Below are positions 9,631 through 30,637 of a stretch of 41,293 bases of DNA, in pieces. Positions within the stretch are counted from its first letter, which is position 1, and each line of letters begins with the position of its first letter. The stretch is from positions 1-41,293 of the IMG/VR virus record IMGVR_UViG_3300031251_000051; one strand, written 5' to 3'. The position numbers and the translations under genes were made by a program. This DNA is from a virus. The notes beneath the pieces are model-generated. The model was not told the origin of the DNA, ran no database searches, and worked only from the letters and a program-made list of their open reading frames with translations.

Positions 9631-9640
9631 AGGTGATGCC
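9631..9640 (-). promoter_or_regulatory. Late-strand element GGCATCACCT, copy 10
   Basis: Perfect core, nine bases past the TAG of the Cys-rich gene. The downstream ATG (9599) is about 30 bases away and has its own GGAGG site, so here the element is not at the start codon. Confidence 0.6.
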
Positions 9641-9648
9641 CACCAGAG

Positions 9649-9954
9649 CTACCACCGGCCTTGTGGGCACTTCTCCGACCCGACGACGGTCTTCCCGGCG
9701 CACAGACAGCCGCAGGTCGTCTCTGTGGCCGTCAGGGGCGTTCCGCACCAATCCGAGGGAGATGATGCCCCCGAGATGGTCAGACGGACGCGGGAGGCAC
9801 AGGACCGGCATTCTGACCGCCTCCGCTCCACCGTCTCCCGGTCGGCCAGATCACCAGTCAGCACCGCCGACAGGAACCGCTCGGCTCCCCGAACCCCGTG
9901 CAGGGATCTCTCGACCAGCCCGCGCCAGCCGACGCGGACAATCTGGACGCTCAT
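9649..9954 (-). CDS. Small Cys-rich protein
   Basis: 101 residues. ATG 9954 is chosen because it overlaps the previous TGA (ATGA); in-frame codons further upstream lie inside the preceding gene. Seven Cys sit in the C-terminal half (ECRSC, DWCG, TCGCLC, KCPQGRW), spaced like a double zinc ribbon or knot. The N-terminal half is helical and basic. It follows directly on the much larger Cys-rich protein, so the two may work together in the virion. Family not named. Confidence 0.72.
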   Translation of the reverse strand: MSVQIVRVGWRGLVERSLHGVRGAERFLSAVLTGDLADRETVERRRSECRSCASRVRLTISGASSPSDWCGTPLTATETTCGCLCAGKTVVGSEKCPQGRW

Positions 9955-11363
9955 ATCGTGATGCCTCCGGTGTTGGCCGGGTCGATCTGGACGCCACACC
10001 CGGCGCATCCGCCGCCCAGATCGCCCAGAGCCCCGCCGGGAGCAACCTGCACATTCCCGCGGTTGGTCCGAATGCCCGACGCTGCCGGATCGTCTTCTCC
10101 AGCGCACTGGCCCGAGCACCGGCCCGAGTAGACCACCGACCACACCGATGACGAGTTGGCCCGCTGCTGGACAACGCCATCACTCCGCCGCGTCTGCGTC
10201 CACGAGCCGCCAAGCTGCGCGTTTTTGCAGAACACCGCCCGGCCGGTCCCGCCGCCGATGATGTTGTCACCGTCGCTGGCCGCCGATGGGTCACACTGCT
10301 CCACCCCGCCGAACGGAGGCGAGAGCGGAAACGGGAACGCGCTCGGAACCTCATCCGCCGCGCACCCCGCCCACGGCGTCATGTTCACCGTCGAAACCTG
10401 CGGAGGGCCGTTGGAATACGTCTCCGTGATCGTCGCCGTGCCGCCGACCTGGTTGTAGAGCACGCCCAGATCGTCATACTGCCAGATGCCCGATCCGCGA
10501 ACCTCCCTCGAGAGCAGGGACGAGAGCATCGGATCGAACATGGTGAGGCTGGAGATCGTCCCCGTCACCGTCCGGGCGTTGGAGCAGCAGCAGTGCCGGG
10601 TGATCGTCGTCGCCGCGCCGATCCCGTTGCAGGCCGTCACGTCCCGATCGACGACGGAGCACGGGAGCAGGCAGGCGCAGCACTTCCCGCCCCGATGCCC
10701 GTCGATCAGTTCAAACCGCTTCACCGCCCCCGCCGGCAGATCCGTCTCGGCGTATGACGTGGTGGGGGCCACCATCACGCACAGGCCGCCGTCGATGCCC
10801 AGCCCGGAGATCCCGTCTCCATGCACCGTCGTCCAGTCGCAGGCGAGGACCGCGCAGGCGAGGAAGTAGATCGGTGGCCCGCTGTAGTTCTGGCCATAGC
10901 ACGGCGAGGCCGCGACGAACCGCCGCCCATACGCGCTCACACACACCGCGTCCGAGCAGTCATTCCACGTCCGCACACAATCCAGATCCGCCGAGTCATA
11001 GATCGGCGTCGCCGGGTCGATCCCGCCGGGAGACTGCTCGACAGGCCGGGAATAGCACCGCCCGTTGACGATGATCTTCAGCACCTGCGATATGGGCGTG
11101 CCGTTACAGGTGGCATCCGAGCAGATCTGAATCGGAGGGAAGACCGACCCGATGCATTCTTCCGGGATCGTGCTATTGGAGCCCGTCCCGGTGATCGTCT
11201 GGGGTGGGCACGCAAAGTACAGATAGGCCGTCGCGCACGATCCGCAGCAGCTCCCGCACGGGGCCAGCAGCATCGCCTCCCCGCCGCCGGAGAGGGCAAA
11301 GAGAGCGTCTTCGCCGGGAGGTACTTGGAAGCTGTCGCCGTCCATCCGGCTGGCTCCCATCAT
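9951..11363 (-). CDS. Large Cys-rich structural protein
   Basis: 470 residues from ATG 11363 (the next codon is also ATG). About 31 Cys, with dense clusters near residues 36-52 (PCGSCCGSCATAYLYFAC), about 230-240 (GKCCACLLPC) and about 258 (RHCCCSN). The remainder is Gly/Ser/Thr-rich beta sequence. Such a Cys density is rare for a protein folded in the cytoplasm and suggests metal clusters or a disulfide-stapled virion part. Its place between distal-tail genes and the membrane cassette suggests a tail-tip or fibre component. I know no family. Confidence 0.72.
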   Translation of the reverse strand: MMGASRMDGDSFQVPPGEDALFALSGGGEAMLLAPCGSCCGSCATAYLYFACPPQTITGTGSNSTIPEECIGSVFPPIQICSDATCNGTPISQVLKIIVNGRCYSRPVEQSPGGIDPATPIYDSADLDCVRTWNDCSDAVCVSAYGRRFVAASPCYGQNYSGPPIYFLACAVLACDWTTVHGDGISGLGIDGGLCVMVAPTTSYAETDLPAGAVKRFELIDGHRGGKCCACLLPCSVVDRDVTACNGIGAATTITRHCCCSNARTVTGTISSLTMFDPMLSSLLSREVRGSGIWQYDDLGVLYNQVGGTATITETYSNGPPQVSTVNMTPWAGCAADEVPSAFPFPLSPPFGGVEQCDPSAASDGDNIIGGGTGRAVFCKNAQLGGSWTQTRRSDGVVQQRANSSSVWSVVYSGRCSGQCAGEDDPAASGIRTNRGNVQVAPGGALGDLGGGCAGCGVQIDPANTGGITI

Positions 11364-12211
11364 TGCGTCAGATCGTCAGACTCATCCGCGAGCACAGTCA
11401 GATCCGCCGCCCCGAGGTACGTTCCCGTCACCGGGAGCGTCACCGCCGCGTGCTGGCTGGCCAGCTTGTTCTTCGGGTTTCGCTTCGCATACGAGTCCAT
11501 CACCAGCTTGGTGATCGTCATGCTCTTGGGTGCGCGGGAGAGGTCGAGCACGGCGTTCGGCCCGTACAGCTCCACGTTGGTGATGTTGCCCATCATCCAC
11601 TCGACCGTGGAATCGTAAATCTTGAGCGTCCCGCCAGTCGGGAGGGACTGCGAGGAGTCCGATCGCTTGGCCGAGACGCGAGCGCCGCCGTAGACGATGC
11701 CCGTGCCGGAGATCCCCCGCTCAGTCTGGAGGTCGGAGCCGGGACCGATCAGCCAGGACGTGTTCGCCGTCGCGTTGTACGGCTGGGTGGTCTTCCCGCC
11801 GAACAGGTAGAGGTTGACCGCGATAACCGCGGCGTTGATGTCCACTGTGCCGGTTCGCTGCTCCAGGTACGTCAGCGTGCCGCCGCCCATGACGTAGAGA
11901 TTTGCCCGGGCGATCATCTTCAGGCGGGTGATCGTGGCGTTGCCGCCGCCCGGCCAGAAGTAGTGCGGCCCGCCGCCGGCGACGAGGACGTAGGGGTTCG
12001 TCCCATAGTCCACGTCCATCTTGTAGGGCGCAAGCGCGGAGTTCTTGATCCGCGACTTTGGGCCGATGACGAAGCGGTTGAGCCCGTCGGTCAGCGCCGA
12101 CAGGTCGAAGGCGGTGATCTCCTGCTCGCCCTCGATTGAGTGGACAAGATCGTGGTCGGAGACGAGCGAGGCGGGCGTAGCGTTGCCCGGAGGGATGATG
12201 GTGACTGCCAT
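11360..12211 (-). CDS. Beta-rich virion protein, unknown
   Basis: 283 residues from ATG 12211. Repeating short strands (NATITRLKMIARANLYVMGG, TVDINAAVIAVNLYLFGG, GTLKIYDSTVEWMMGNITNVELYG) look like a right-handed beta-helix or beta-solenoid. That suggests a fibre or baseplate protein. There is no Shine-Dalgarno sequence; the GGCAACACCT element sits four bases before the ATG. It shares style with the protein at 18991-19470. Confidence 0.7.
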   Translation of the reverse strand: MAVTIIPPGNATPASLVSDHDLVHSIEGEQEITAFDLSALTDGLNRFVIGPKSRIKNSALAPYKMDVDYGTNPYVLVAGGGPHYFWPGGGNATITRLKMIARANLYVMGGGTLTYLEQRTGTVDINAAVIAVNLYLFGGKTTQPYNATANTSWLIGPGSDLQTERGISGTGIVYGGARVSAKRSDSSQSLPTGGTLKIYDSTVEWMMGNITNVELYGPNAVLDLSRAPKSMTITKLVMDSYAKRNPKNKLASQHAAVTLPVTGTYLGAADLTVLADESDDLTQ

Positions 12212-12215
12212 GCGT

Positions 12216-12225
12216 AGGTGTTGCC
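12216..12225 (-). promoter_or_regulatory. Late-strand element GGCAACACCT, copy 9
   Basis: Core with A in place of T at position 5. It ends four bases before ATG 12211, and no Shine-Dalgarno sequence is visible. It lies just after the stop of the upstream gene (12246). Confidence 0.65.
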
Positions 12226-12245
12226 GACGGAGGCCGCCCCCGGGC

Positions 12246-12662
12246 CTACACGGTCTTCCGGCCCGTGAACGAGACGCGGAGCCTCCCCGCCGCCGCCGTC
12301 GTCACCCGGAGGCGGCAGGCGACCTTTCCGGAGCAGGCAAGGGCAAGCTGGGTTTGGGTTGATCCGGTATTGGTGACGCTGACCGAGGAGGCCGTCGTGT
12401 CCCACCGCTCGCCGTTGAGGGTGTCCTCGACGATCAGGGCGGCTCCCGCGGGATAGGCCCCCTCGATCGACTCGACCTTGAACGAGAACTGATCCAGCCC
12501 GGCACAATCGAAGATCGCGGAGTTGGCGAGGAAGTTCAGATCGAGCAGAACGTCGAACGTGCGGATGTTCAGCGGCGTCGCGCCCGCCGCGGCGAGCTTG
12601 GTGAAGCCCCCCGAGAGGATCGGAGGTCCGGCGTCGGTGATGTCGAGAGGGGCGTCGGGCAT
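12246..12662 (-). CDS. Virion protein, unknown
   Basis: 138 residues from ATG 12662, ribosome site GAGGAAG. Beta-rich and Thr/Ala-rich (SVSVTNTGSTQTQLALACSG, RLRVTTAAAGRLRVSFTG), without motifs; probably a small tail or decoration protein. It starts three bases after the stop of the upstream gene. Confidence 0.68.
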   Translation of the reverse strand: MPDAPLDITDAGPPILSGGFTKLAAAGATPLNIRTFDVLLDLNFLANSAIFDCAGLDQFSFKVESIEGAYPAGAALIVEDTLNGERWDTTASSVSVTNTGSTQTQLALACSGKVACRLRVTTAAAGRLRVSFTGRKTV

Positions 12663-12665
12663 GGG

Positions 12666-12989
12666 TCAGCACTTCCTCGATTTGGGCGCTTCCACAAAGT
12701 CAAAGACGAACTCTCCCGGCGTCGATTGGCCGTGGGCGCGGACGCGGGTTCCACGGATCTGGGCTCCCACCGGGAGGGGCTTCAGGAGCAGCACCGCCGG
12801 GTCAGCATCCCAAAACGGGCCGGAGCAGGGCCGGTAGATGGGGACGCCCTGCATCAGCCCGTCGGGAGTCTGGACGATCGCCGTGTAGGCGGGCATCGTC
12901 GAGAACGTGTAGTACCCCGAGGGCGCGGCGGTGATCTTCGCAACCACGTTGTCGATCAGGAAGGGCGTTGGGCGGTCGTTGTTGCGCAT
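12666..12989 (-). CDS. Small tail-region protein, unknown
   Basis: 107 residues from ATG 12989. Strand-rich with Pro/Gly turns and a basic C-terminus ending SRKC. No clear ribosome site: the sequence before the ATG is two tandem copies of a C-rich 9-mer (TTGGGCAGG on the plus strand, about 12997-13014). Function unknown; it lies among distal-tail genes. Confidence 0.62.
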   Translation of the reverse strand: MRNNDRPTPFLIDNVVAKITAAPSGYYTFSTMPAYTAIVQTPDGLMQGVPIYRPCSGPFWDADPAVLLLKPLPVGAQIRGTRVRAHGQSTPGEFVFDFVEAPKSRKC

Positions 12990-13015
12990 GGGCGAGTTGG
13001 GCAGGTTGGGCAGGT

Positions 13016-13873
13016 TTACGGGAGAAGGGCGAGGATCGCGGCGTAGCCGTTGGGGTCGTATTTCTTGCTCAGGACGGAGATGAACTCGGGGAGCGCCGAC
13101 GGATCGCCGCCGGGCTGGGGCCGGAGAATCACGTCATGCAGCGGCGGCTTCGTCCACGGCGTCTGCGGCTCGTTCGGGAGCTTGCTGAACACCTGCGGGA
13201 ACTGCACCGAGCCGTCCAGCGGGAGCGTGTTGATGTCGATGTTCACGATGCCCGAGGACCGCACCCACGAGAGGGAGGCGCGATAGTCGTCGGTCGTGCT
13301 GTCGGCGTCGCCGATCTCCGACGGCTCGAACATGTAATAGCGATTGTTGATCTTGTGGATGTTCCCCGCCTGATCGAAGATCGTTTCAATCGCCGAGCCG
13401 AGAGCGTCGGCCTTGATCCGGCACTCGATGCTGATCCGCATCACCTTCTCGATCATGGCCTGATTCAGGAACAGCCACACGTCTTTGAACACCGGGGGAT
13501 CGGGCGGGCCGGTCTGCCCGGGTCCGAGGACCGGCGTCGCCAGGAGCTGCTTCACCTTCGCCGTCCACGGGATCTCCGGGCGCTGGCTCTCGAAGCTCGT
13601 CCGCCATCGGTAGCCCGTGACGGGGACGACGTTCGCGGTCGGGAACCTGAATCGCCTGTCAGTCGAGTACAGCGCGGTGATCTTCTTGTCCGCACCGCCG
13701 GAGTTGATGCTGTACGAGTCGAGGATCAGACGCGGGTTGTTCGGATGCTTGGCGTTGAAGTTGGGGAGCGGCTCGTTGCCGGAGTTTCCCCCGAGATAGT
13801 CCCCGGGCTTCATGGCGACGGCGACGGGATCGACGCCCGAATTAACCAGCAGATACGGCTGGCTCAGGGTCAT
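13016..13873 (-). CDS. Distal-tail-like protein (start uncertain)
   Basis: At least 285 residues from ATG 13873. Mixed alpha/beta; it follows the tape measure gene, where distal tail proteins lie, but no family is recognised. The chosen ATG has no ribosome site. The same frame stays open upstream to 13939 and reads naturally (GVSVQYDNAQ before the Met), so the N-terminus may be longer, using a non-standard start or a frameshift. See the finding on 13870-13958. Confidence 0.7.
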   Translation of the reverse strand: MTLSQPYLLVNSGVDPVAVAMKPGDYLGGNSGNEPLPNFNAKHPNNPRLILDSYSINSGGADKKITALYSTDRRFRFPTANVVPVTGYRWRTSFESQRPEIPWTAKVKQLLATPVLGPGQTGPPDPPVFKDVWLFLNQAMIEKVMRISIECRIKADALGSAIETIFDQAGNIHKINNRYYMFEPSEIGDADSTTDDYRASLSWVRSSGIVNIDINTLPLDGSVQFPQVFSKLPNEPQTPWTKPPLHDVILRPQPGGDPSALPEFISVLSKKYDPNGYAAILALLP

Positions 13874-13935
13874 CTGAGCGTTGTCGTATTGGACCGAGAC
13901 CCCGGATTCATCAAGTACCCAGCCCAGAAGGTCAC
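13870..13935 (-). CDS. Possible 21-residue coupled leader peptide
   Basis: GTG at 13935 opens a 21-codon frame whose TGA overlaps ATG 13873 as ATGA. It could translate in order to load ribosomes onto the distal-tail gene, or be a remnant of that gene's true N-terminus in another frame. Evidence is only the open frame and the overlap. Confidence 0.3.
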   Translation of the reverse strand: MTFWAGYLMNPGSRSNTTTLR

Positions 13936-13949
13936 CTCAGCGGAGGTGA
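13932..13949 (-). promoter_or_regulatory. Perfect hairpin overlapping late element copy 8
   Basis: TCACCTC and GAGGTGA form a 7-base stem with a 4-base loop. The left arm (mRNA sense) is part of the GGCATCACCT element and the right arm is Shine-Dalgarno-like, so in mRNA the element would hide a ribosome site. Confidence 0.5.
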
Positions 13950-13953
13950 TGCC
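13944..13953 (-). promoter_or_regulatory. Late-strand element GGCATCACCT, copy 8
   Basis: Perfect core, two bases after the tape measure TGA (13956-13958). It contributes one arm of the hairpin at 13932-13949. Confidence 0.6.
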
Positions 13954-13955
13954 CG

Positions 13956-15035
13956 TCAGGTTCCGTTCCCGACCGACCGGAGCCGCGCATCGATGACCTG
14001 GCTGATCCTGCTCACGTCCGCGGCAATGGATGAGAACTGGGCCTGCGTGAAGGAACGCTGGGCGTCGGCGAGCTTGCTTATCGCCCCGGTGATCTCGGCG
14101 GAGAAGGCGGCGGCGAACTTGGAGGCGGCTTCCTCGGCGGCATGGGTAACGGCATCGCTCTCGGCCTGCGTTCGTCGCTTGATCGCTTCAATCTGCCTGT
14201 CGAGGGCTTCCTGTTCGTCTTCGGATTGGGACTTTGCACGCTGGCGTCTCAGCTCTTCGATGTCTCGCTTTTCCTTGGCATAGATCGCGTCTACACCTTC
14301 GAGGCGAGCATCATTGATCTCCTGCGTCTGCTTGCGAATGTCCTCAATCCGCGCCTTCTCCATCTCGGTCTGTGCTGTGATGGACTGTTCGTATTTGTCC
14401 TGCTCGCCCGCGTAGTAGTCGTCTCGCAGCTTTTGCTTTTCTCGCATGAAGAGCGCGGAAGCCTGCTTTGCTGCCGATGCCTGCTCGGCGGCGATCTCTT
14501 TGGGATCGTCTACAAGGTCATTTGCCCACTGGAGCGGGCCTTGAAGCAGGGCCTTCCAGACGGTCGCGGATTTAACCGCTTCCGATGCGCTTTTGGCACT
14601 TGATGCCGTGGCCTCAATGGTCCGCTTCGACAGCGCGTTGATCGCATCATCTAGGCTGTTGTGCTGGCCCGATGCGGAAAGTTGAGCAAGCTCGTTCCGC
14701 AGGCTCCGAAGCCCTGACGTAAGCTCGTCCAGGCTCGCGCGGGCATCCTCCTTGCGGTTGAATACCTTGTCCAGCGACGTGGCGATCGCCGTGGCCGTTC
14801 CGAGGATGATCGCGGGCAAGCCCACAAAATGCTCGAACTCTTTGAGCATTGAACGGATCGGGCTAACAACTTCCTTTGCGGCTTCTCCCAGATCCTCCGT
14901 GGCCTTTTTGACCCCAGACACGCTCCCCTTCGCGCCCTCTCCAGTCTTGGTCAGCTCGTCCCGCGTCTTGGCAACGTCAGCGCCAGCCTCCCGGGCATTT
15001 GTGACGAAGCGGATTATCGCGTCTGCGAATGACAT
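13956..15035 (-). CDS. Short tape measure / coiled-coil tail protein
   Basis: 359 residues from ATG 15035. It starts with a short motif seen in tape measure proteins (MSFADAIIRFVTNAREAGAD), has a hydrophobic stretch near 70-90 (FVGLPAIILGTATAIATSL) and then a very long charged coiled coil (about 190-300). Tape measure proteins set tail length at roughly 1.5 angstrom per residue, so this would mean a tail near 50 nm, short for a siphovirus. A tail-length protein made from only part of a larger set cannot be excluded. Confidence 0.62.
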   Translation of the reverse strand: MSFADAIIRFVTNAREAGADVAKTRDELTKTGEGAKGSVSGVKKATEDLGEAAKEVVSPIRSMLKEFEHFVGLPAIILGTATAIATSLDKVFNRKEDARASLDELTSGLRSLRNELAQLSASGQHNSLDDAINALSKRTIEATASSAKSASEAVKSATVWKALLQGPLQWANDLVDDPKEIAAEQASAAKQASALFMREKQKLRDDYYAGEQDKYEQSITAQTEMEKARIEDIRKQTQEINDARLEGVDAIYAKEKRDIEELRRQRAKSQSEDEQEALDRQIEAIKRRTQAESDAVTHAAEEAASKFAAAFSAEITGAISKLADAQRSFTQAQFSSIAADVSRISQVIDARLRSVGNGT

Positions 15036-15051
15036 TTTAGGGGCCTGTGGG

Positions 15052-15080: not shown

Positions 15081-15087
15081 TCGTGGC

Positions 15088-15342: not shown

Positions 15343-15343
15343 G

Positions 15344-15353
15344 AGGTGATGCC
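15344..15353 (-). promoter_or_regulatory. Late-strand element GGCATCACCT, copy 7
   Basis: Perfect core on the minus strand, but here inside the start of a plus-strand gene (ATG 15349). The nearest downstream minus gene is the tape measure, 300 bases away across an inserted plus gene. It may mark the ancestral junction before that insertion. Confidence 0.5.
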
Positions 15354-18135: not shown

Positions 18136-18930
18136 CTACGCCCACCAGCTCACAGCCCCAGGCTTGTCGATCTTCCCGCGTGTCGGCGTCCCGGTGATGT
18201 CTTTCCACCCCGACCACTCCAGCGGGATCGTGGCGCTGACAAGATCTCCAGCCTCGATCGGCACGCTCTGCTCGGGGTTCGGGACGATGCAGTACCGCAG
18301 CTCGTAGAAGGTTGTGGAGTCAACGTACAGCTTCAGGATGTCGATCGTCCCCGGCTGGATCAGCGTCGCCGGCACGCCTTCATTGAGCGTCAGGGAGGCC
18401 GTCGCGGTCTTGTTCCCGTTGGAGCCGACGCGCATGACGACGCCCGACTGAACGTAGGTCTTCAGGTCGATCGCCAGATCCAGCGTCCACTCCTTGACGC
18501 CCGCAACGTCCGAGCCGCCGAAGTTGGCTTTGCAGGACGTGGCGATGTACATGGCGGGGGAGGTGGAATCCGTGACCGAGGTTGCGCCGGTCGTCAGGGC
18601 GCCGTTGCCCTGAACCGTCAGGGAGCCGCCCAGATACCCGCCAGACTCAATCGGGGCCGTCACCTTGATCGACTGGCAGATGCCCGTCCCGGTCCACGAG
18701 CCTCCGCCGGTCTGGGCGACGAACGAAACCGCGTCGCCGGGGAAGGCCGGGGGGATCTTCCCGTAGTAGTCCATCGTGGCCGACCAATCGGCGTTTCCCG
18801 CCTTCTTGACGGGCGCACTGTTGGTATTGGAGGCCATGCCGCTGGCGATCTGCACCAGAGGCGTGATCTTGATGTTCCGAATCGACGTGAAGCCGTTGAC
18901 GGCTCCGCTGTTTGCGAGAATGACGCCCAT
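18136..18930 (-). CDS. Major tail tube protein
   Basis: 264 residues from ATG 18930. Beta-rich with the pattern of tail tube proteins: an N-terminal strand, a WSATMDYYG segment, Thr/Ser-rich strands and a C-terminal ATIPLEWSGWKDITG motif followed by a short arm. It is preceded by tail completion genes and followed (after the island) by the tape measure, as in siphoviruses. Translation start carries the GGCATCACCT element and no Shine-Dalgarno sequence, although this should be one of the most abundant late proteins. Confidence 0.72.
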   Translation of the reverse strand: MGVILANSGAVNGFTSIRNIKITPLVQIASGMASNTNSAPVKKAGNADWSATMDYYGKIPPAFPGDAVSFVAQTGGGSWTGTGICQSIKVTAPIESGGYLGGSLTVQGNGALTTGATSVTDSTSPAMYIATSCKANFGGSDVAGVKEWTLDLAIDLKTYVQSGVVMRVGSNGNKTATASLTLNEGVPATLIQPGTIDILKLYVDSTTFYELRYCIVPNPEQSVPIEAGDLVSATIPLEWSGWKDITGTPTRGKIDKPGAVSWWA

Positions 18931-18934: not shown

Positions 18935-18944
18935 AGGTGATGCC
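18935..18944 (-). promoter_or_regulatory. Late-strand element GGCATCACCT, copy 6
   Basis: Perfect core ending four bases before ATG 18930 of the tail tube gene; tandem hairpins lie immediately upstream. Confidence 0.68.
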
Positions 18945-19470: not shown

Positions 19471-19982
19471 ACCTGTATTTCTCCCCAAGCCCAGATGAGC
19501 TTGACGTCTACCCGGATGAGCGTCGCCCAGCCGTCGAAGTTGTCGTTGATGTTCGGCCCGGCATCCGAGACGCCCGAGCACCGAACCAGCTTCACAAACG
19601 GCAGATCGGGGATGCCGTCACGCACCCGCGCAAACGCCCGGATCGCCGCCCATTTCAGTTCGTTGATCCCGTCCCGCCCGAAGGCGTCTCCGCCCGTCCG
19701 CTTCTCGTTGGTCAGGAGTTGGACGTTGTACCCCTGCGTCCAGCCGAACGCGCTGGAGGAGTTGTCGGTGTTGGCGATCCCGCCCGCCGGCTCCAGCCGC
19801 AGCTCCGGGGCATCTGCATTCAGCCGGTTGTCCTTCCGGCCCAGCTTCTCGGGCTTGGAGAGGATGGTGATGTTCCCGGCCTTCACGAGCGCGGCGAAGG
19901 CGGGATGGGAGGTCAGCACCCAGCCTAATCCGCTCTCGGTCAGGGTCAGGGGGTCGATGTCGGCGTAGATGGTGACGCTCAT
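19467..19982 (-). CDS. Tail completion-type protein
   Basis: 171 residues from ATG 19982, strong GGAGGAG site, ATGA overlap. Mixed alpha/beta (FAALVKAGNITIL, ELKWAAIRAFARVRDGIP, ATLIRVDVKLIWAWGE). Its size, and its place after the gpG/gp10-like gene and before the tube, match tail terminator proteins, but there is no clear sequence signature. Confidence 0.55.
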   Translation of the reverse strand: MSVTIYADIDPLTLTESGLGWVLTSHPAFAALVKAGNITILSKPEKLGRKDNRLNADAPELRLEPAGGIANTDNSSSAFGWTQGYNVQLLTNEKRTGGDAFGRDGINELKWAAIRAFARVRDGIPDLPFVKLVRCSGVSDAGPNINDNFDGWATLIRVDVKLIWAWGEIQV

Positions 19983-20629
19983 GATGCTCCTCCGGCCATC
20001 GAACGCCCGACGGCGCGGAGAGCGTCCTGCACCATGCCGCCAATCGTCTCCTGATCGGGCGGAGCGACGATGATGCGCTGGGGGAGGTGACGCCCGCCGT
20101 TCTGGTGGTAGGACGCGATCTGGCCCATCGTGGCCCGTCCGCCGGCGTGCGTAGGCCCGCCGCCGATGCCGTACTCGACGCCGCCGGGGATGACGCGGTA
20201 GACGTTCCCGGTCCATCCGATGGTCAGGCAGCGACGCAGGGCGCCGGTGTCATTGAGCACCGTGACGGTTCGCCCGGCGCCGGCGACGATCTTGCCGCCG
20301 TGCTTGGTGTCGCGGGCGAGCGATGAGCGTGCGCCGTCGCCGTTGGGCCTGCCGCCGAACCCCAGAAACGGATTCGCCTTGGTTCCCTTGCCCTGCGCCC
20401 GAGCCTGCCGGGCCTTGATCGTGCTCAGCGCCAGCGGCTTCCAGTCGCCGCCGCCGCGCCCGAACGTGTCGAATCGCCGCATCTCAAACGCCTGAATCCG
20501 CGATCCCCACTGCTTCACCATCGCACCAAACGGCTCATTCCCCGGGCGGCCAGCGGCCAGCCCTTCCAAACCGGCAATGAGCCGATCGGCCCCCGCCTTG
20601 TTGATCGTGATTTTGATGGTGTCCGACAC
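19979..20629 (-). CDS. Mu-G / HK97-gp10-like virion morphogenesis protein
   Basis: 216 residues from GTG 20629. The family pattern is visible: MRRFDTFGRGGGDWKPLALSTIKAR, then LNDTGALRRCLTIGW, then VEYGIGGGPTHAG and a closing SYHQNGGRHLPQRIIVAPP. These proteins finish the tail or joint so that heads and tails connect. It uses the GGCATCACCT element three bases before its GTG and has no Shine-Dalgarno sequence. Confidence 0.78.
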   Translation of the reverse strand: MSDTIKITINKAGADRLIAGLEGLAAGRPGNEPFGAMVKQWGSRIQAFEMRRFDTFGRGGGDWKPLALSTIKARQARAQGKGTKANPFLGFGGRPNGDGARSSLARDTKHGGKIVAGAGRTVTVLNDTGALRRCLTIGWTGNVYRVIPGGVEYGIGGGPTHAGGRATMGQIASYHQNGGRHLPQRIIVAPPDQETIGGMVQDALRAVGRSMAGGAS

Positions 20630-20632: not shown

Positions 20633-20642
20633 AGGTGATGCC
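20633..20642 (-). promoter_or_regulatory. Late-strand element GGCATCACCT, copy 5
   Basis: Perfect core ending three bases before GTG 20629; lies in the 16-base gap after the TGA at 20646. Confidence 0.65.
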
Positions 20643-23645: not shown

Positions 23646-23655
23646 AAGTGATGCC
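23646..23655 (-). promoter_or_regulatory. Late-strand element GGCATCACTT, copy 4 (one mismatch)
   Basis: Nine of ten bases match. It lies eight bases after the protease TAA and about 48 bases before the decoration ATG, which has its own GAGG site. Confidence 0.5.
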
Positions 23656-23663: not shown

Positions 23664-24230
23664 TTAGCGCGAGAGCGTGCCGACCTGCTTCTTGAACGAA
23701 TCGAACATGGCCTTGTCTTCGTCGGTGGCGATCTGCGCCCCGGTCTTCTCCCCGACCTTGCGGGGGGCCGAGAGCTTCAGAATGTCGATGACCTGCCGGG
23801 CGATGGGGGCTTCAAGCCCGGCGTGCGTCGCGGCCTTGCGGCTGAGCGCCAGCACCGGACGCTTGCCCTTCTCGCCCAGGATGAGCTTGTCCAGCGCGAT
23901 CTTCTGGGCCGCGTTGATCTGGCCGGAGGCGACCAGCGACCCGATCTCCGAAGCAACCGTGTCGGCGCGCTCTTCGAGGTCGTCCTGGTCGATCGTCGGA
24001 AGGCCCCGGCTGGCTTTGAGCGACACCAGCTCGCTCTTGACCGTCTCGGCCTCGGTCTTCGCGGCGGTCGTCTCGGCCTTGGAGGCGGAGAGGGCGGCGG
24101 CGGCCTGACTGGCCTTCGCGGCGCTGCAGGTCATATCGGTGAGGGCGGCTTTGACGCGGGCCGGGCCGGTCGTGTCGTCGAGGCCCGTCATATCGAGGCC
24201 CATGATCGTTGCGAGTTCGCGCCAGTCCAT
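23664..24230 (-). CDS. Nested scaffold protein (internal in-frame start)
   Basis: 188 residues from ATG 24230 within the protease gene, preceded by CGGAG seven bases ahead. It starts MDWRELATIMGLDMTG, then a coiled coil and a C-terminal TLSR end shared with the long form. It mirrors lambda C/Nu3 and Mu I/Z, where scaffold is made in excess from an internal start. Expression is inferred. Confidence 0.65.
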   Translation of the reverse strand: MDWRELATIMGLDMTGLDDTTGPARVKAALTDMTCSAAKASQAAAALSASKAETTAAKTEAETVKSELVSLKASRGLPTIDQDDLEERADTVASEIGSLVASGQINAAQKIALDKLILGEKGKRPVLALSRKAATHAGLEAPIARQVIDILKLSAPRKVGEKTGAQIATDEDKAMFDSFKKQVGTLSR

Positions 24231-24773
24231 TGTGCTGCTCCGTGTTGCTGAGAAGACCAGTACCTGCTTTGCCTTGCCACCAAGTGATGCCGCCAGCGGA
24301 ACAAACGGTCCCAGCTTCTTGACGGCGGGATCGGGAACGCACGCCAGATGCACGAGTGCGTCCGTGTAGGTATTGCCATCAACCGCATATTCCGGGTCGA
24401 TGTAGACGCTGACCTCCGAGCGGGAGGCGAGCGCGAGAGCGTCCGCGCCGATCATCTCGACGGAGGCGACGAGCCGATCACCTTCGCGGAAAACGTCGGT
24501 GACGTACCCGCGCGTCTGATCGGCGTCCATGTTGTGACCGACCTGCACGGGCACCTTGACGCCCGCGGCCTTCATCGCGGCGAAGGTCTTGACGACCTGA
24601 TCGAGATACGCCGGGGTGATGACAAACTCGCCGGTGGAGGCGTAGACCTTCCCGAGGCGGAGGATCGTCTTGACGTAGGCCCGGACGGGCTGGGCGTTGG
24701 CGTCGGTGCGAATAGCCGCGGAAGGCGACATTGCGCCCTTGTCAGCGATCAGCACCATTCCAGGCTTCGGCAT
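23664..24773 (-). CDS. Capsid maturation protease with scaffold domain (Mu I-like)
   Basis: 369 residues from ATG 24773, the Met that follows the late element. Protease part, residues 1-175: GEFVITPAYLDQVVKTF, VPVQVGHNMDADQTRGYVTDVF, SVYIDPEYA and ALVHLACVPDPAV, as in Mu gpI-like capsid proteases. The rest is a long Ala/Lys/Glu coiled coil, the scaffold. An internal ATG (24230) with its own ribosome site would give scaffold alone. Confidence 0.85.
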   Translation of the reverse strand: MPKPGMVLIADKGAMSPSAAIRTDANAQPVRAYVKTILRLGKVYASTGEFVITPAYLDQVVKTFAAMKAAGVKVPVQVGHNMDADQTRGYVTDVFREGDRLVASVEMIGADALALASRSEVSVYIDPEYAVDGNTYTDALVHLACVPDPAVKKLGPFVPLAASLGGKAKQVLVFSATRSSTMDWRELATIMGLDMTGLDDTTGPARVKAALTDMTCSAAKASQAAAALSASKAETTAAKTEAETVKSELVSLKASRGLPTIDQDDLEERADTVASEIGSLVASGQINAAQKIALDKLILGEKGKRPVLALSRKAATHAGLEAPIARQVIDILKLSAPRKVGEKTGAQIATDEDKAMFDSFKKQVGTLSR

Positions 24774-24777
24774 GGGC

Positions 24778-24787
24778 AGGTGATGCC
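24778..24787 (-). promoter_or_regulatory. Late-strand element GGCATCACCT, copy 3
   Basis: Perfect core ending four bases before ATG 24773. Upstream lies an imperfect tandem of TAGTTGATGGG (about 24790-24815), the only AT-rich stretch in this junction. Confidence 0.68.
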
Positions 24788-24841
24788 GGTAGCCCATCAA
24801 CTACCCATCAACTAACCATGAACTACGGGCCGGAGACCCGC

Positions 24842-25354
24842 CTATCTCTCATCGCCCATTTCAGGATCGACGATCAGCATTGCTGCGCGGATCAGATCAA
24901 CGACCTCCGCCGGCGTCTTCCACATGAGTTCCGCGACGGTCTTCAGCGGCGTGCCGCGCTGGATCAGCCCGACGGCCTCCCGCTGATCGTGCTCGAGCGC
25001 GTCCCAGCATTCCGCCCAGTCAAAGCGCGACAGATCGGGCGTCGCCGGGCCTACCGCCGTTCGCGGGAGACGACGCTGCTCGCCGTCGTCCTTGGATGCT
25101 CCGCCATCGCCCGCCGCCCATTTGTTTCGGTCTCGCCAGTGATCGCGCGGGAGACTTCTCGCCGTGTTGGCATAGGCGAAGGTCGAGAACGCCGATCCGT
25201 ATTTGGGGTTCCATCGCTTCGCCGATTCGGCGAGGTGGATGTACGCCTTTCCGATCTGATCTCCGGTCGGGAGGTTGTTGCGGGCCTCGCACTTCCGGGC
25301 CAGCGCGACGGCGATCCCGACGTGCCGCGCTGGGTCAGGAAACTGTGCTGACAG
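24842..25354 (-). CDS. Sigma-70-family factor without a standard start codon
   Basis: About 170 residues if started at CTG 25354; the frame opens just upstream and has no ATG, GTG or TTG before the conserved part. Region 2 is recognisable (DQIGKAYIHLAESAKRWNPKYG then SAFSTFAYANTARSL), matching the sigma-70 helix that contacts the core enzyme and -10 DNA. Region 4-like residues follow near the end (LEHDQREAVGLIQRGTPLKTVAELMWKTPAEVVDLIRAAM). It overlaps the preceding gene by 20 bases. Translation must use CTG (an AGGG lies upstream) or a +1 frameshift at the upstream stop, UCC UGA C. Likely a late-gene sigma factor; role inferred. Confidence 0.62.
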   Translation of the reverse strand: MSAQFPDPARHVGIAVALARKCEARNNLPTGDQIGKAYIHLAESAKRWNPKYGSAFSTFAYANTARSLPRDHWRDRNKWAAGDGGASKDDGEQRRLPRTAVGPATPDLSRFDWAECWDALEHDQREAVGLIQRGTPLKTVAELMWKTPAEVVDLIRAAMLIVDPEMGDER

Positions 25355-25883
25355 GAAAGACCCTGCGGTTGTCGTCCAGCCTCACCTCCCCGGACTTGGC
25401 GGCGGCCATGATGATCTGCCGTACACGCTTCTTGCGGGAGGCGGAGGCGGTTGGAATGACGCCCGCGAGCTTCATTTCCAGCGCGTCGGCGGAGGTGCCG
25501 GGGTTGGCGGCGATCTCCGCCATGACGACTTTCTTAATGCTCCCGATCTTCTTCTTCGGGGCGGAGGCCGTCCGTTCCGGCTGGTCCGAACTGGCTGATG
25601 TTGTGTCCGCCTGCCGCGGCGGGATTCGCTCGGGAGGCGGTTTCGCGGCCTTCCGCTTGGGCTTCTTTTTCTTATTGGGCCAGCGTCCTGGCTTCTTCTC
25701 GGGCTTGGTCGTCGGCCTCACCTGCTCGATCAAGTCCCCGACGCGGACCATGACGATCTTCGTGCGGCCGGTGATGAGATCCGAGAGCGTCGCCATCTCA
25801 TCGGCCATCGCCTTGGCTTGCTGTTCGAGCGTCTCAATTCGAGCCTTGGCGGCGACGGTCAGCACGCCAGTAATCGCGTCCAT
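25335..25883 (-). CDS. Coiled-coil and winged-helix-like protein, partner of the sigma gene
   Basis: 182 residues from ATG 25883 with GGAGGATG ahead. A coil (residues 8-50), a Lys/Pro/Arg linker (60-110) and a folded C-terminus (SIKKVVMAEIAANPGTSAD, then ASRKKRVRQIIMAAAKSGEVRLDDNRRVF) that looks like a winged helix. Its stop UGA is followed by C and lies inside the sigma frame, so a +1 shift would fuse the two. It has its own promoter. It could be a DNA-binding activator. Confidence 0.68.
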   Translation of the reverse strand: MDAITGVLTVAAKARIETLEQQAKAMADEMATLSDLITGRTKIVMVRVGDLIEQVRPTTKPEKKPGRWPNKKKKPKRKAAKPPPERIPPRQADTTSASSDQPERTASAPKKKIGSIKKVVMAEIAANPGTSADALEMKLAGVIPTASASRKKRVRQIIMAAAKSGEVRLDDNRRVFPVSTVS

Positions 25884-25910
25884 GCGGGCATCCTCCGATA
25901 GATGCCAGTG

Positions 25911-25919
25911 ATAATAGCA
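25911..25919 (-). promoter_or_regulatory. Extended -10 promoter for the regulator pair
   Basis: Minus strand TGCTATTAT: a TATTAT box with the TG-N extension. No good -35 box is visible. The start point near 25904 gives a 20-base leader with GGAGG before ATG 25883. It lies inside the late arm and would allow the pair to be expressed before late transcription. Confidence 0.6.
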
Positions 25920-25964
25920 GAAGGTGTGATAGACGTGCGTTATGCGCTGTCGTTCACCCGACGA

Positions 25965-26852
25965 TCACGCGGCGCGGAGCAGATCCGCAAACACCTTGCC
26001 CGGGTTGAAGCCGAAGCCCGCGGCGGCGGAAACGTCGGGCACTTCCGTCGGCGTCGCCAGCACGCCGTGGTTGAAGACTTCGATGACGGTTGACCTGCAA
26101 TTGTAGTGGTTCGGAGGCGTCAGCCGGTCCCAAACCGGATCTCCCGCGGCACGGCGCATCCCGTCCAGCGACGAGCAAAGCTCGGTGGTTCGGTCGTCCA
26201 TGACCGCCGAATACTCGTATCCCCAGAGGATCTCCTGAATCGCCGGGTCTTCGTTGGCGCTCCACCGTCCCGCCGAGTACGCCGTCTGCACCGACGTCCG
26301 ATAGATCGTGCTGATCTGGTAGGGGTTGGAGATCGTCAGGCCGCGGGAGTCGAGAGCCTGGCGGATCGCCGATACCGCACCGGAGGTCGTCAGGCCGCCG
26401 GCGACGGTATCGACGGCCACCTGCTCCGCGATCTTAAGAACGCCGTCGCCCAGCGTCCCCGCCGCCGTCGTCGCCGCCTGCCCGTACTGGGCCTGGATCT
26501 GTGCCGCCGCCTGTGGTGAGAGGTTCAGCCGCCGCGTCAGGAACTCCATCGCGTCGTCGATCGTGGAGAGTTTCAGAGCCTTGCCGTTCCGCCCGCGCAT
26601 GAAGCGTTCGGCGGTGATCGCACTGCGGAGCCTGCCCTGAAGGTGGGCCGTCACCATGCCCGAGTGAATCGACTTGGCCATGCTGCTCTGAAACGTGTGC
26701 AGGATCGGGCCGAGCGGAATATGCCCCTCGACGTGCTGGATCAGCCCGGCGCGGAGATCGCGTACCGCCGCCGTCGCCGAGCGGATGGAGGCGTTTTCGA
26801 TCCGCGTCCGCTCCCGATCGATCGTCGCGGCCATGACGATCGCCTGGCTCAT
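25965..26852 (-). CDS. Mu F / SPP1 gp7-like head morphogenesis protein
   Basis: 295 residues from ATG 26852, ribosome site GAGGTGA. The family hallmark is C-terminal: QTAYSAGRWSANEDPAIQ, YEYSAVMDDRTTELCSSLDG, then WDRLTPPNHYNCRSTVIEVF, with conserved Cys and His. Members are minor capsid proteins near the portal that are injected or help assembly. Portal and protease neighbours agree. Confidence 0.88.
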   Translation of the reverse strand: MSQAIVMAATIDRERTRIENASIRSATAAVRDLRAGLIQHVEGHIPLGPILHTFQSSMAKSIHSGMVTAHLQGRLRSAITAERFMRGRNGKALKLSTIDDAMEFLTRRLNLSPQAAAQIQAQYGQAATTAAGTLGDGVLKIAEQVAVDTVAGGLTTSGAVSAIRQALDSRGLTISNPYQISTIYRTSVQTAYSAGRWSANEDPAIQEILWGYEYSAVMDDRTTELCSSLDGMRRAAGDPVWDRLTPPNHYNCRSTVIEVFNHGVLATPTEVPDVSAAAGFGFNPGKVFADLLRAA

Positions 26853-26856
26853 CGCG

Positions 26857-27132
26857 TCACCTCAGATCCGAGGACCATCGCTGTATGAGCGCCCGCATTT
26901 CGTTGGCATGGTGCACTTCCCCAGCCTCGCGCAGGTTCTGCTCGAAGACGCGGAGCTGCTCGAACAACTCGACGAGCGCCGACGCTCCCATCGGATCGAG
27001 CGTCACGCCGATCATGCCCGTCTTTGTGATCCCGTCCCGCTTCCGCTTCTCCCGCTCCTCGGCGTCCTTTTTTAGGACATCGATCGGCAGCATGAAGCCG
27101 CACTGCGGGCATGTCTCGGGCGTGAAGGCCAT
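26857..27132 (-). CDS. Small Cys-pair protein
   Basis: 91 residues from ATG 27132. N-terminal TCPQCGFMLP is half a zinc ribbon; the rest is helical and charged, ending in HANEMRALIQRWSSDLR. No second Cys pair, so zinc would need a dimer. A TATACT box just upstream suggests its own, nearly leaderless, transcript. Function unknown. Confidence 0.65.
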   Translation of the reverse strand: MAFTPETCPQCGFMLPIDVLKKDAEEREKRKRDGITKTGMIGVTLDPMGASALVELFEQLRVFEQNLREAGEVHHANEMRALIQRWSSDLR

Positions 27133-27139
27133 TTCCGCG

Positions 27140-27145
27140 AGTATA
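27140..27145 (-). promoter_or_regulatory. Candidate -10 box giving a leaderless transcript
   Basis: TATACT on the minus strand, seven bases before ATG 27132, with a TTACCG box 16 bases upstream. The start point would fall on the A of the ATG. Confidence 0.4.
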
Positions 27146-27147
27146 CA

Positions 27148-28590
27148 TCAGGCCGCCTTGCCGGTAAGGGCCAACTGGGTTTTCCGCCAGATCTGGGCCG
27201 CGATCGCCGCCGCCTTGGGGTCGGCGCCGACCCCCGGCGCCGTCGGGTCGGCCATGTCCGCCGCCGCGGCCTTCCGGGGTATGCCGGTCATGTCCATCGC
27301 GGCATCCATGTCCATCATCCCCAGCAGCAGATCGACGTTCGCGGGGTTCTCCAGAACGGTGGCGACCAACGTCCGAATAAAATCCTTCTCCTCGTCCACC
27401 AGCGGAGCGGCCTTGACGATCGCCGTGCCCTCGGCGCCCGGCCCGAAGTTGGCGACCAGCATCTTGTCCACCAGATGCCAGTTGATCGCCAGCATGATCT
27501 GGTCGAGCGTGTCCTGGGCGATGACGATGGCCACGTCGCCGTGGGCGCCCGCCTCCGCCTTGGTCCCGTACTGGCCTTCCAAGGCCGTCCGCTCGGGCAC
27601 GAGCAGCCCGCGCATCATCAGGCTCTCGAACTTCCCGAGGAGCTGCTGGAACTCGTCGCCGTGGGCGGTCTTCGCCTCCAGAAACTCAATCTGCCATGCC
27701 GCGAGCTTGGTCGGATCGACGTTGGCATTGATGAGCGTTTCGGCCCACTTGGCGAGCACCTGGGGCATGGTGACGCCCGAGCCGGAGCCCAGACGCTGGA
27801 GGATTCGGGCCGCGATGACGCCGTTATCCACCGTTGCTCCACCGGCATCCAGAGACTGGCCCGTCGGGTAGCGGATGATCGGGATGATCCCCGCCGCCTT
27901 GGTCGTGTACAGGCCGGTGCGCTCGAGGGTCTGCTTCCACGGCCACCATGCCTCGGCCCGGCAGTTCTCCAGCCGGGATCGGCCCCGGAGGTCGCCGGAT
28001 TCCGAGTCGTGGGGAATGACGAGGCAGTCATCGGGGGTAAGTGTGACGCCGCCGTTCTTGACGCCCGCGAATGCTCCGGTCTGGGGATCGTGCATGATCT
28101 CCGTCAGCTCCGGGCGGAGGGGCTTGAGCTTCTTCGGGACGGTGTATCCGTCCACCACGTCCCAGACGATCTCGAAGGCGGAGAATCCGAACTCAATGCA
28201 CCGGAGGCCATCGCTCAGGATCGTCGAGCGCAGGGGTAGGATGTAGTCCTTGATGAGCTGCTCGGCATCTTCGTTTCCGTCGTCGGCTCCGTCGGGCTTT
28301 GTCGCGGACCAGTTCGCGGCCTTGATCGGCGCTTTGCAGACGGCCAGACCCAGCGCCACCGTCGGGTTGTGCAGCATCTTCCGGTAGGTGGAGATGGAGC
28401 CTGAGGGCGGAACGCCGAAGCCGTGGTGGTTGAACCCCGCCGCCATCGCCCAGTTGGAGGCGAGGTAGGCGGAGGCGTCTACGCCGCCGTTCTCTCCGGT
28501 GATCTGGTTGCCCGTCTGGGCCTCGCCTGAGGCCGGAGGGGCGGACAGGATCAGGCTACGGGCCTTGCTGGCGAGTGTTCGGAGGTTCAT
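27148..28590 (-). CDS. Portal protein (DUF935, Mu gp29-like)
   Basis: 480 residues from ATG 28590. The portal pattern is evident: ISTYRKMLHNPTVALGLAVCKAPI, GFSAFEIVWDVVDGY, then DDCLVIPHDSESGDLRGRSRLE and a long helix region with LGKFESLMMRGLLVPERTALE. The C-terminus is Ala/Met rich. It forms the dodecameric DNA gate to which the terminase docks. No Shine-Dalgarno sequence; the late element is four bases before the ATG and lies inside the small upstream gene. Confidence 0.88.
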   Translation of the reverse strand: MNLRTLASKARSLILSAPPASGEAQTGNQITGENGGVDASAYLASNWAMAAGFNHHGFGVPPSGSISTYRKMLHNPTVALGLAVCKAPIKAANWSATKPDGADDGNEDAEQLIKDYILPLRSTILSDGLRCIEFGFSAFEIVWDVVDGYTVPKKLKPLRPELTEIMHDPQTGAFAGVKNGGVTLTPDDCLVIPHDSESGDLRGRSRLENCRAEAWWPWKQTLERTGLYTTKAAGIIPIIRYPTGQSLDAGGATVDNGVIAARILQRLGSGSGVTMPQVLAKWAETLINANVDPTKLAAWQIEFLEAKTAHGDEFQQLLGKFESLMMRGLLVPERTALEGQYGTKAEAGAHGDVAIVIAQDTLDQIMLAINWHLVDKMLVANFGPGAEGTAIVKAAPLVDEEKDFIRTLVATVLENPANVDLLLGMMDMDAAMDMTGIPRKAAAADMADPTAPGVGADPKAAAIAAQIWRKTQLALTGKAA

Positions 28591-28732
28591 CGGCAGGTGA
28601 TGCCGGAAGGTTCGCCGGAGCCTCCGCTACCTGAGTGGCATCGACGGGGATCGGGCCGGTGGGCTTGACTGGCGGAGTTTCGACCTTGGGAGGGCTGGTC
28701 GCGCTCGCCTGTTTCGCGTCGTCGGCGTCCAT
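28556..28732 (-). CDS. Small Pro/Ala-rich protein between terminase and portal
   Basis: 58 residues from ATG 28732 with GGAG eight bases ahead. Low-complexity sequence (SPPKVETPPVKPTGPIPVD, EAPANLPASPADEPP), probably disordered. It overlaps the first 35 bases of the portal gene, so the late element at 28595-28604 is coding here (PASPADE). Translation through it may open or close the portal start. Confidence 0.5.
   Translation of the reverse strand: MDADDAKQASATSPPKVETPPVKPTGPIPVDATQVAEAPANLPASPADEPPNTRQQGP
28595..28604 (-). promoter_or_regulatory. Late-strand element GGCATCACCT, copy 2
   Basis: Perfect core ending four bases before portal ATG 28590, embedded in the coding sequence of the small upstream gene, so it is kept at nucleotide level within a coding frame. 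Confidence 0.68.
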
Positions 28733-28735
28733 CGC

Positions 28736-30205
28736 TCACACTCCAAACCGCCCCTCGGGCAGTTCGATCCGTTGCCCCCTCAGCCTCCACACACGATAGC
28801 CCTCTGCGTCCGATCCGTGCGTGAGGTCGGGGTCGCTCTTGTCTATCGCGCCCTTGGAATCCAACTGCACGCCCGTGAAGTCGCGGATCAGGCGTGTACA
28901 CCGCGGGTGCACGCGGTATCGGATCAGCCCATGCCCGTCGGGTCCGTCGGCGTCGCGCAGGGCGTAGTTCACGGTGTTCAGCCGGTCGATGACCTTGGGA
29001 TTCGCCGCCGGCACGCGCAGGCTCACCTCCAGCCCCATCTTCGAGAGCGACTGGAGCATGAGCTGGTATTGCGTCATGCCCGTGGCGACCGAGCGGGCGG
29101 AGCCAGATGAATCGCCGTACAGCTCCACCGATGCCCACCTGTGCGGGAGTGACGCGAGAAGCCTGTCGAGCGCCGCCATCGACGCCTGCACGCTCATGTT
29201 CGGGGCGTGGATCTCGTGCACGCATGTCAGCACGTCCGCGACGGGATCAAACTGGCCCAAGTAGACATGCATACCCGGAACGATGTTGAAGTCCACGGAG
29301 ATTTGCAGGGGCAGATCGGGCCGGAGCGTGATCGCGTTGTCGATGTTCTCCGGGGTAAACCGGGAGTATGCCGCGCCTGCCGCCACAAGGTGCGGGTTCT
29401 GCTGGTGCAGAGCATCGAACGCCGCGCCCATCTGCACGCGCATGGCCGTGAGTTGTGACGCCGTGTATCGCTCCGGGCAGATCGCTTCCCCGACAGCCCG
29501 GCCCATCGGATCACCGGCAATGGCCAGAGACGGGAGTGAGACGTGCTTCCACCGATGCCCGTCCTCACCGGCGAGCAGTTGCCCGGTCAGGTCTTGCGCG
29601 TGCATCCGGTGGTGCAGGATAATGACCGTGGCGCCGGGTTCCAATCGTGAAGATGCTGTGGCCCGGAACCAGTTGTAGACACCGTTTCGCACGGTCCCGG
29701 ATTGACCGTCGGACCATGACGCATACGGATCGTCGATGATGAGCACGTTGCCGCCGCGGCCCATGACCGACTCGGAGACGCCGACGGTCTTCATCCCGCC
29801 ACCCTGCGTCGTCGCCCACTCATCCTTCGCAACCGTGTCGTCTTTGAGCTTCACGCGCAGGATCGGATTCGCGTTCAGGATGTCACGCACCCGTCCACCG
29901 TAGAACTTGGCGAGCGGGCTGGTGTTCGTTGCGAGCAGCACCCTTTTCGTCGGGTTGAGCGAGAGGAACCAAGCGGGCGTCCATTCGCTGATGAGCGTGC
30001 TCTTGCCCGTGCGTGGCCCGAGGTTCACCAGCAGGCGGGAGTCTTTGGTGTTCACCGCTGCGGCGATGATCCGGCTCAGGAAGCGAACGTGCGGGAACAT
30101 GCGGAACGGCTCGGCGCTCTGGCGCGTAAGTTGATTCGCCAGAATGTGCGGAGCGGCCCACCCCTGCGATTCAATCGCCGCGATGGTGTCTTCAGCCGCC
30201 TGCAT
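28736..30205 (-). CDS. terL: Terminase large subunit
   Basis: 489 residues from ATG 30205 (AGAGGG site; this start avoids a Pro-rich false N-terminus that overlaps the small subunit). ATPase: variant Walker A GPRTGKST at 63-70 and Walker B VLIIDDP at 154-160. Nuclease: RNase-H-like QISVDFN (Asp 305), ELYGDSSG (Asp 365) and a C-terminal acidic segment (KSDPDLTHGSDAEG). It cuts and pumps DNA into the prohead. It overlaps the small subunit by 14 bases. Confidence 0.93.
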   Translation of the reverse strand: MQAAEDTIAAIESQGWAAPHILANQLTRQSAEPFRMFPHVRFLSRIIAAAVNTKDSRLLVNLGPRTGKSTLISEWTPAWFLSLNPTKRVLLATNTSPLAKFYGGRVRDILNANPILRVKLKDDTVAKDEWATTQGGGMKTVGVSESVMGRGGNVLIIDDPYASWSDGQSGTVRNGVYNWFRATASSRLEPGATVIILHHRMHAQDLTGQLLAGEDGHRWKHVSLPSLAIAGDPMGRAVGEAICPERYTASQLTAMRVQMGAAFDALHQQNPHLVAAGAAYSRFTPENIDNAITLRPDLPLQISVDFNIVPGMHVYLGQFDPVADVLTCVHEIHAPNMSVQASMAALDRLLASLPHRWASVELYGDSSGSARSVATGMTQYQLMLQSLSKMGLEVSLRVPAANPKVIDRLNTVNYALRDADGPDGHGLIRYRVHPRCTRLIRDFTGVQLDSKGAIDKSDPDLTHGSDAEGYRVWRLRGQRIELPEGRFGV

Positions 30206-30623
30206 CGGCCCTCTTTTCGGCGGCGGCGATGAGGATCTCACGGGCAGCGGGATCGGCGAGCATGGCGCGGGCGGCGGCACGGCTCGCGTCGATGCCGATG
30301 CTCTCGGTGTTCAGCCCGGCGTCGAGGCGGGCATACTTCTCGTCCTGGTGGTCGTCGGCCTGGTCCTGCCCGGCCATGCCGAGATACGTCTTCACTCCGC
30401 TGAAAACGCCGTCATAGTCGCCCGCGTTCTCTGCCATGTCCAAAGCACGGTCGAGTTTCAGTTTGAGGTCTTCCCGCTTGGCCTCTGGCACATGCCACCG
30501 GGGACGCTTGCGGGCCGCCTGACGAACCAATGCCCGATCCTTCTCGCAGGCCATGTCGAGTTCGCCGGATGTAGTTTCCCCCTCCCGCGGCGCAGGCGGG
30601 GCAGACTTGTCTTCTTCGCCCAT
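30192..30623 (-). CDS. Probable terminase small subunit
   Basis: 143 residues from ATG 30623, the Met after the late element; an upstream in-frame ATG (30686) would add an unlikely basic leader. Helical and charged, with a basic N-terminal half (RQAARKRPRWHVPEAKREDLKLKLDRALD) and an Ala-rich end (RAAARAMLADPAAREILIAAAEKR). The position directly before terL and the size support the call; sequence similarity is not decisive. Confidence 0.65.
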   Translation of the reverse strand: MGEEDKSAPPAPREGETTSGELDMACEKDRALVRQAARKRPRWHVPEAKREDLKLKLDRALDMAENAGDYDGVFSGVKTYLGMAGQDQADDHQDEKYARLDAGLNTESIGIDASRAAARAMLADPAAREILIAAAEKRADAGG

Positions 30624-30627
30624 GCCA

Positions 30628-30637
30628 AGGTGTTGCC
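30628..30637 (-). promoter_or_regulatory. Late-strand element GGCAACACCT, copy 1
   Basis: Core with A at position 5, ending four bases before ATG 30623; it heads the whole late arm. Confidence 0.65.

Follow-up and report, generated by a model that had tools for sequence, protein, structure and literature searches.

What takes the place of the Shine-Dalgarno (SD) sequence at the late genes of a phage that otherwise uses ordinary ribosome sites? The question is raised by GGCAWCACCT, a ten-base element repeated along the late strand of IMG/VR virus record IMGVR_UViG_3300031251_000051, whose 41,293 bases form the window analysed here. Six exact copies lie 3–4 nt upstream of late start codons. Judged from sequence, GGCAWCACCT is most likely a phage-specific start-associated element that heads groups of late genes.

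The window contains nine exact copies, all on the minus strand and none on the plus strand, against 0.19 ± 0.42 expected from dinucleotide shuffles; the coordinates, single orientation and rarity given in the original prediction were all correct. Its count of ten holds for these nine, but the tenth copy (23655) carries one mismatch, a class of match common in the window, and is weak. Seven copies read GGCATCACCT, two GGCAACACCT (12225 and 30637) and one GGCATCACTT (23655). Alignment of the copies revealed a conserved block of 12 bases (YSGGCAWCACCT) with no other strong conservation from −70 to +40, and the flanks vary. The gaps between the element and the start codons at 30623, 28590, 24773, 20629 (GTG), 18930 and 12211 are 4, 4, 4, 3, 4 and 4 nt, as first reported. 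When nine copies were placed at random among the 34 late starts (100,000 trials), at most two fell at 3–4 nt, compared with the six observed. At 28590 (portal), 20629, 18930 and 12211 the open reading frame (ORF) offers no start earlier than the one adjoining the element, and these four assignments are therefore independent of the motif. The start-proximal copies and their genes are as follows.

30628..30637, minus strand: GGCAACACCT, 4 nt upstream of the TerS ATG (30623), without an SD sequence
30192..30623, minus strand: TerS candidate by position only (first late gene, 5' of TerL), no family match
28595..28604, minus strand: GGCATCACCT, 4 nt upstream of the portal ATG (28590), the first start of the ORF
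27148..28590, minus strand: Mu-type portal protein (Portal_Mu, 5e-26), element at its start
24778..24787, minus strand: GGCATCACCT, 4 nt upstream of the head maturation protease ATG (24773) and directly after 11-bp tandem repeats
23664..24773, minus strand: head maturation protease (family match), element at its start
20633..20642, minus strand: GGCATCACCT, 3 nt upstream of the GTG (20629) of a tail completion/Neck1-type gene
19979..20629, minus strand: tail completion/Neck1-type protein (family match), element at its start
18935..18944, minus strand: GGCATCACCT, 4 nt upstream of an ATG (18930), preceded by two 22-nt hairpin repeats
18136..18930, minus strand: late gene without family match, conserved in two prophages, element at its start
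12216..12225, minus strand: GGCAACACCT, 4 nt upstream of an ATG (12211)
11360..12211, minus strand: late gene without family match, element at its start

The TerS, portal and neck genes and the gene at 12211 each head a cluster of closely spaced or overlapping genes. Protein families support the names portal, protease and neck, but the "tail tube" (18930) and "fibre" (12211) of the original prediction have no family match. Its statement that the second copy is coding in the upstream gene depends on a 58-aa Pro/Ala-rich ORF (28556–28732). Two of the elements directly follow local repeats: three 11-bp tandem repeats (TAGTTGATGGG, 24793–24826) precede the copy at 24787, and two tandem 22-nt hairpin repeats (CCGCTACGCCGAATGTAGCGG and CCGCTACGCCAGATGTAGCGG, 18947–18989) precede that at 18944.

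Pairing with the 16S 3' tail was evaluated at hand-listed starts, taken mostly from a simple codon-usage caller. The anti-SD duplex energies at the six element starts were −1.7, −1.7, −1.7, −2.5, −5.5 and −1.7, indistinguishable from random minus-strand positions (mean −2.9, p = 0.42); the moderate value (−5.5, at 18930) reflects a G-rich stretch adjoining the motif. Other late genes carried clear SD sequences (mean −5.6; p = 7e-7 against random positions, p = 0.005 for element genes against other late genes), and the energies of early genes were likewise clearly below background. The reported lack of ribosome sites at the six element genes is thus confirmed, and the element replaces the SD sequence in an otherwise SD-using genome. 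Early genes at 32190, 33056 and 36277 (plus strand) have in common an extended SD sequence upstream of the start codon (GGAGCCTGCC or GGAGCCGCCC). The 3' tail of a 16S from Phycisphaerae, the probable host class (see below), is ordinary (GGATCACCTCC), and the element is not complementary to it: the motif complement AGGTGWTGCC was not found in that 16S (best match 8/10), and the W position varies between copies. Ribosome recruitment, one of three functions originally proposed, finds no support here in the form of base pairing. The likeness of the element itself to the 16S tail (ATCACCT) is real.

The remaining copies stand away from minus-strand starts.

9631..9640, minus strand: GGCATCACCT, intergenic, 31 nt upstream of the ATG at 9599, which has its own GGAGG
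13944..13953, minus strand: GGCATCACCT, 2 nt past a stop codon and 70 nt upstream of the ATG at 13873, within a TCACCTC/GAGGTGA hairpin
23646..23655, minus strand: GGCATCACTT, doubtful intergenic copy with one mismatch, 48 nt upstream of the ATG at 23597, which has GAGG
15344..15353, minus strand: GGCATCACCT, overlapping the start codon of the plus-strand gene 15349–15861

The normal ribosome sites claimed for the starts at 9599 (GGAGG) and 23597 (GAGG) are present. At 13953, the reading frame of the 13873 gene is open back to a TGA that occupies the position of the ATG in other copies. The copy at 15353, described earlier as marking a late minus-strand junction, instead spans the start of a convincing plus-strand gene (15349–15861, reading as a zinc-ribbon-like and membrane protein, with weak family support) and is probably there by chance. 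Small plus-strand membrane/zinc-ribbon-like genes (15060–15308 and 15349–15861) lie inside the late region.

The closest named kind of element is the start-associated sequence (SAS), as described in cluster K and cluster EF phages. In cluster K mycobacteriophages, the SAS (GGGATAGGAGCCC) contains AGGAG and marks non-structural genes, with half of the copies accompanied by inverted repeats (ESAS) (PMC3203893, PMC11373665); the ESAS holds SigA-like promoters (PMC11373665). The SAS of cluster EF Microbacterium phages (GGGAAAGGACCCC) occurs in ten copies, is complementary to 16S, and has an upstream ESAS centred on GTAGAG at every copy (PMC7302621). The window element resembles the cluster K SAS as a short, asymmetric, phage-specific repeat that occurs in one orientation and occupies the ribosome-site position before several starts (6/9 exact copies at 3–4 nt, all minus strand, within the ~3–9 nt typical of that SAS). 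With the cluster EF SAS it shares the ten copies and, again, the ribosome-site position. However, the SAS of both clusters contain SD-like cores, whereas the window element has none, its energies being at background against an ordinary host-type 16S tail. It also marks structural genes, lacks a common inverted repeat (hairpin repeats occur only before 18944), and shows neither the 16S complementarity nor the ubiquitous ESAS of cluster EF. The cluster K 13-mer GGGATAGGAGCCC was not found at gene starts with two or fewer mismatches: the best match in the window (two mismatches, 12450, plus strand) lies off any start, and minus-strand matches have at least three mismatches. By these comparisons the element falls outside the known SAS families and would represent a new form of phage start-associated sequence. 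We found no published description of it, or of the CGTATMAC element described below, as a start element in the open-access papers searched.

The phage probably infects Phycisphaerae. The best relative of its IS1595-type transposase (73%) is encoded in a Phycisphaerales genome, and a portal search confined to Phycisphaerae genomes gave matches in 10 of 397 at E ≤ 0.001, nine of them clear. Eight of these prophage portals are 33–40% identical to the window portal over most of its length, several within the same gene order. Portal alignment also recovered 80 IMG/VR contigs (30–46% identity). Nucleotide and single-protein searches found no close relatives, and a TerL alignment scan returned only distant contigs without the motif. 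The window element is not multi-copy in any of the 80 contigs (five exact coding-strand and three other-strand matches in total), and it marks starts neither in these nor in the nine prophages. IMG/VR scans revealed no locus with more than two copies, either among the matches listed for GGCATCACCTNNNCATG or in the complete scan with GGCATCACCTGCNNATG (95 stretches); several matches were antisense, near a MuF-like gene. Nor does the host class appear to use the element, which had 0–1 matches per genome in 13 genomes, the same as the control, and was not enriched before starts. In most relatives, words repeated before starts cluster on plain SD sequences. The exact-word repeats of relatives (GGTCGCTG, TCACCGGC, TGCGAGTT and others) turned out to reflect coding sequence or tandem repetition. 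Two related contigs (L383 and L384) carry many CACCTTGTCACC tandem repeats on both strands. The original prediction held that absence of the element from the same junctions in related phages would speak against it. Taken literally, this is the situation in the 80 contigs and nine prophages, but the phenomenon is not thereby disposed of, because in the closest relative the portal and protease starts carry an element of another sequence.

We detected this second element when looking for words that recur upstream of ORF starts; the same search recovered the window motif as a positive control. Multi-copy CGTATMACNNNNATG elements stand 4 nt before ATG codons in prophage G095, contig G521 and Microbacterium phage Magritte. 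In G095, the closest prophage (portal 40%), CGTATMAC lies exactly 4 nt before the ATG of five late genes without an evident SD sequence, including portal and protease, and these are all the matches in the 4.8 Mb genome. The tetramer GAAT recurs 17 nt upstream of four of the five (p = 0.001). Portal and protease are the two element genes shared with the window among nine orthologues (1.3 expected), an overlap not significant alone. A complete IMG/VR scan with CGTATAACNGGCATG identified G521, a 135-kb contig related to Magritte that carries six copies on one strand, two of them directly 3' of terminator-like hairpins; the GGAT found 17 nt upstream in two G521 copies falls within hairpin loops and was rejected as a second block. 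In Magritte (83.7 kb), 10 of 12 coding-strand CGTATMAC copies stand exactly 4 nt before an ATG, with a GAG-rich block conserved 21 nt upstream (p = 3e-4). Part of the Magritte element in some copies, TTAG[CT]GCGTA[TC], recurs away from start codons (L569, L568); some of these TTAGCGCGTAY sites are flanked by −35/−10-like hexamers, and they may be operators. The window element shares with the CGTATMAC elements multiple copies, the fixed distance of 4 nt, a common YAWMAC and, with the five G095 genes, the lack of an SD sequence. The CGTATMAC elements differ from it in sequence, in a hexamer 2 nt closer to the ATG and in the second upstream block. The features seen in G095, G521 and Magritte would fit promoters placed where genes begin better than signals for translation.

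Leaderless bacterial promoters place the −10 element at −12 to −7 of the ATG, and their genes lack an SD sequence. In the window, the hexamer CAWCAC occupies −12 to −7 at the five genes that start with ATG and lies one base closer at the GTG gene, so that a −10-like element ends about 6 nt before the start, and SD pairing is at background at five of the six starts. We therefore favour, tentatively, leaderless promoters of the late genes over a signal for initiation at the RNA level, because the G095 and Magritte analogues have the appearance of promoter cores placed at gene starts and the geometry agrees; that the element is a late promoter core in DNA, with transcripts beginning on the initiation codon or a few bases from it, nonetheless has a probability somewhat short of even. 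Some polymerase factor would read the element, transcription would start at or near the initiation codon, and the six late messages would be leaderless and need no SD sequence. Starts further downstream (9599, possibly 23597) would receive a short leader with a normal SD sequence, and we counted the exact copy at 9640, followed by GGAGG and an ATG, in favour of this arrangement. The −10-like leaderless element, another of the originally proposed functions, gains indirect support from the same-position elements of the nearest prophage and of two actinophages, which have a second block. Several observations weigh against it. The window copies have no second (−35-like) block upstream (p > 0.98), unlike the bipartite arrangement in G095 and Magritte, and CAWCAC replaces the TANNNT of ordinary leaderless promoters. 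At 60% G+C, the element also misses the −7 T characteristic of ordinary −10 boxes. Scanning 9000–28999 with a consensus turned up no sigma-70 promoter at any of the copies in that interval, and no sigma factor or RNA polymerase was recognised when most genes were compared with Pfam and PHROGs. A promoter of a single-subunit phage RNA polymerase is not indicated either, with no polymerase family in the genes scanned and a block of 12 bp as against ~20 bp. No clear start lies close to the copy at 13953. The window and CGTATMAC elements resemble each other weakly (YAWMAC), such that the analogy may not transfer, and the TATMAC hexamer of G095 and Magritte lies 2 nt closer to the ATG than ideal.

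The main rival, possible though less than probable, is a site in the mRNA through which a phage or host protein, or an RNA, either draws the ribosome to SD-less starts or keeps it off them. Fixed spacing, a single orientation, replacement of the SD sequence and the lack of a second DNA block in the window all agree with this, and the cluster K SAS has been proposed to act in translation (PMC3203893). However, the element is not complementary to 16S, and it has no common RNA fold: the copies next to starts are unpaired to about the same degree as random stretches. Rfam and tRNA searches found nothing. The copy at 9640 stands 31 nt from a start with its own SD sequence, and the conserved block further upstream in the G095 and Magritte analogues suggests recognition of DNA. 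An operator, the third function originally proposed, at which a phage regulator (whether repressor or late activator) binds DNA near late-gene starts and separately from a promoter core, would account for an asymmetric, intergenic ten-base site in one orientation, and the Magritte sites off start codons amid −35/−10-like hexamers offer a parallel; such an operator alone would leave the missing SD sequences and the exact start distance unexplained, and we consider it improbable. Recombination boundaries, or a recent spread of short repeats to gene junctions with no role in expression, would fit an element with variable flanks that is confined to this genome as far as searched. Neither would be expected to replace the SD sequence at a fixed distance, and in the nearest prophage that place is taken by a different sequence, making this very improbable. 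Chance or a composition artefact, for which the G+C-rich genome and its many one-mismatch matches might speak, has negligible probability given the excess of exact copies over shuffles and the placement simulations, and is excluded for the six start-proximal copies.

Further features of the window include hexanucleotide arrays, (GGCTAC)n and (ACGGCT)n, at its ends (1–45 and 40976–41173), which point to a genome that is circular or permuted and was opened within a single repeat array. The IS1595-type transposase (16025–16987, minus strand) lies inside the late region. A T4 Rnl1-type RNA ligase (PHROG 562, 37579–38649, plus strand) is encoded in this 41-kb temperate phage, as is an HNH endonuclease with a C-terminal helix-turn-helix (869–1564, plus strand).

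The presence of a different element at the same position in a distant prophage suggests a little-described way of starting late-gene expression. Extending this, we speculate that unrelated phages of Phycisphaerae and Actinobacteria use phage-specific, SD-less start elements with a YAWMAC core at a fixed distance from the ATG as a common expression switch, in the form of leaderless promoters with a dedicated factor or an SD-bypassing translation signal, a generalization that we regard as rather unlikely. If leaderless mRNAs or SD bypass are indeed involved, a phage of a little-studied bacterial class would switch its virion genes to a separate mode of initiation while the rest of its genome keeps ordinary ribosome sites, and the various start-associated repeats known from phages, for which no role has been settled since 2011, would be brought together.

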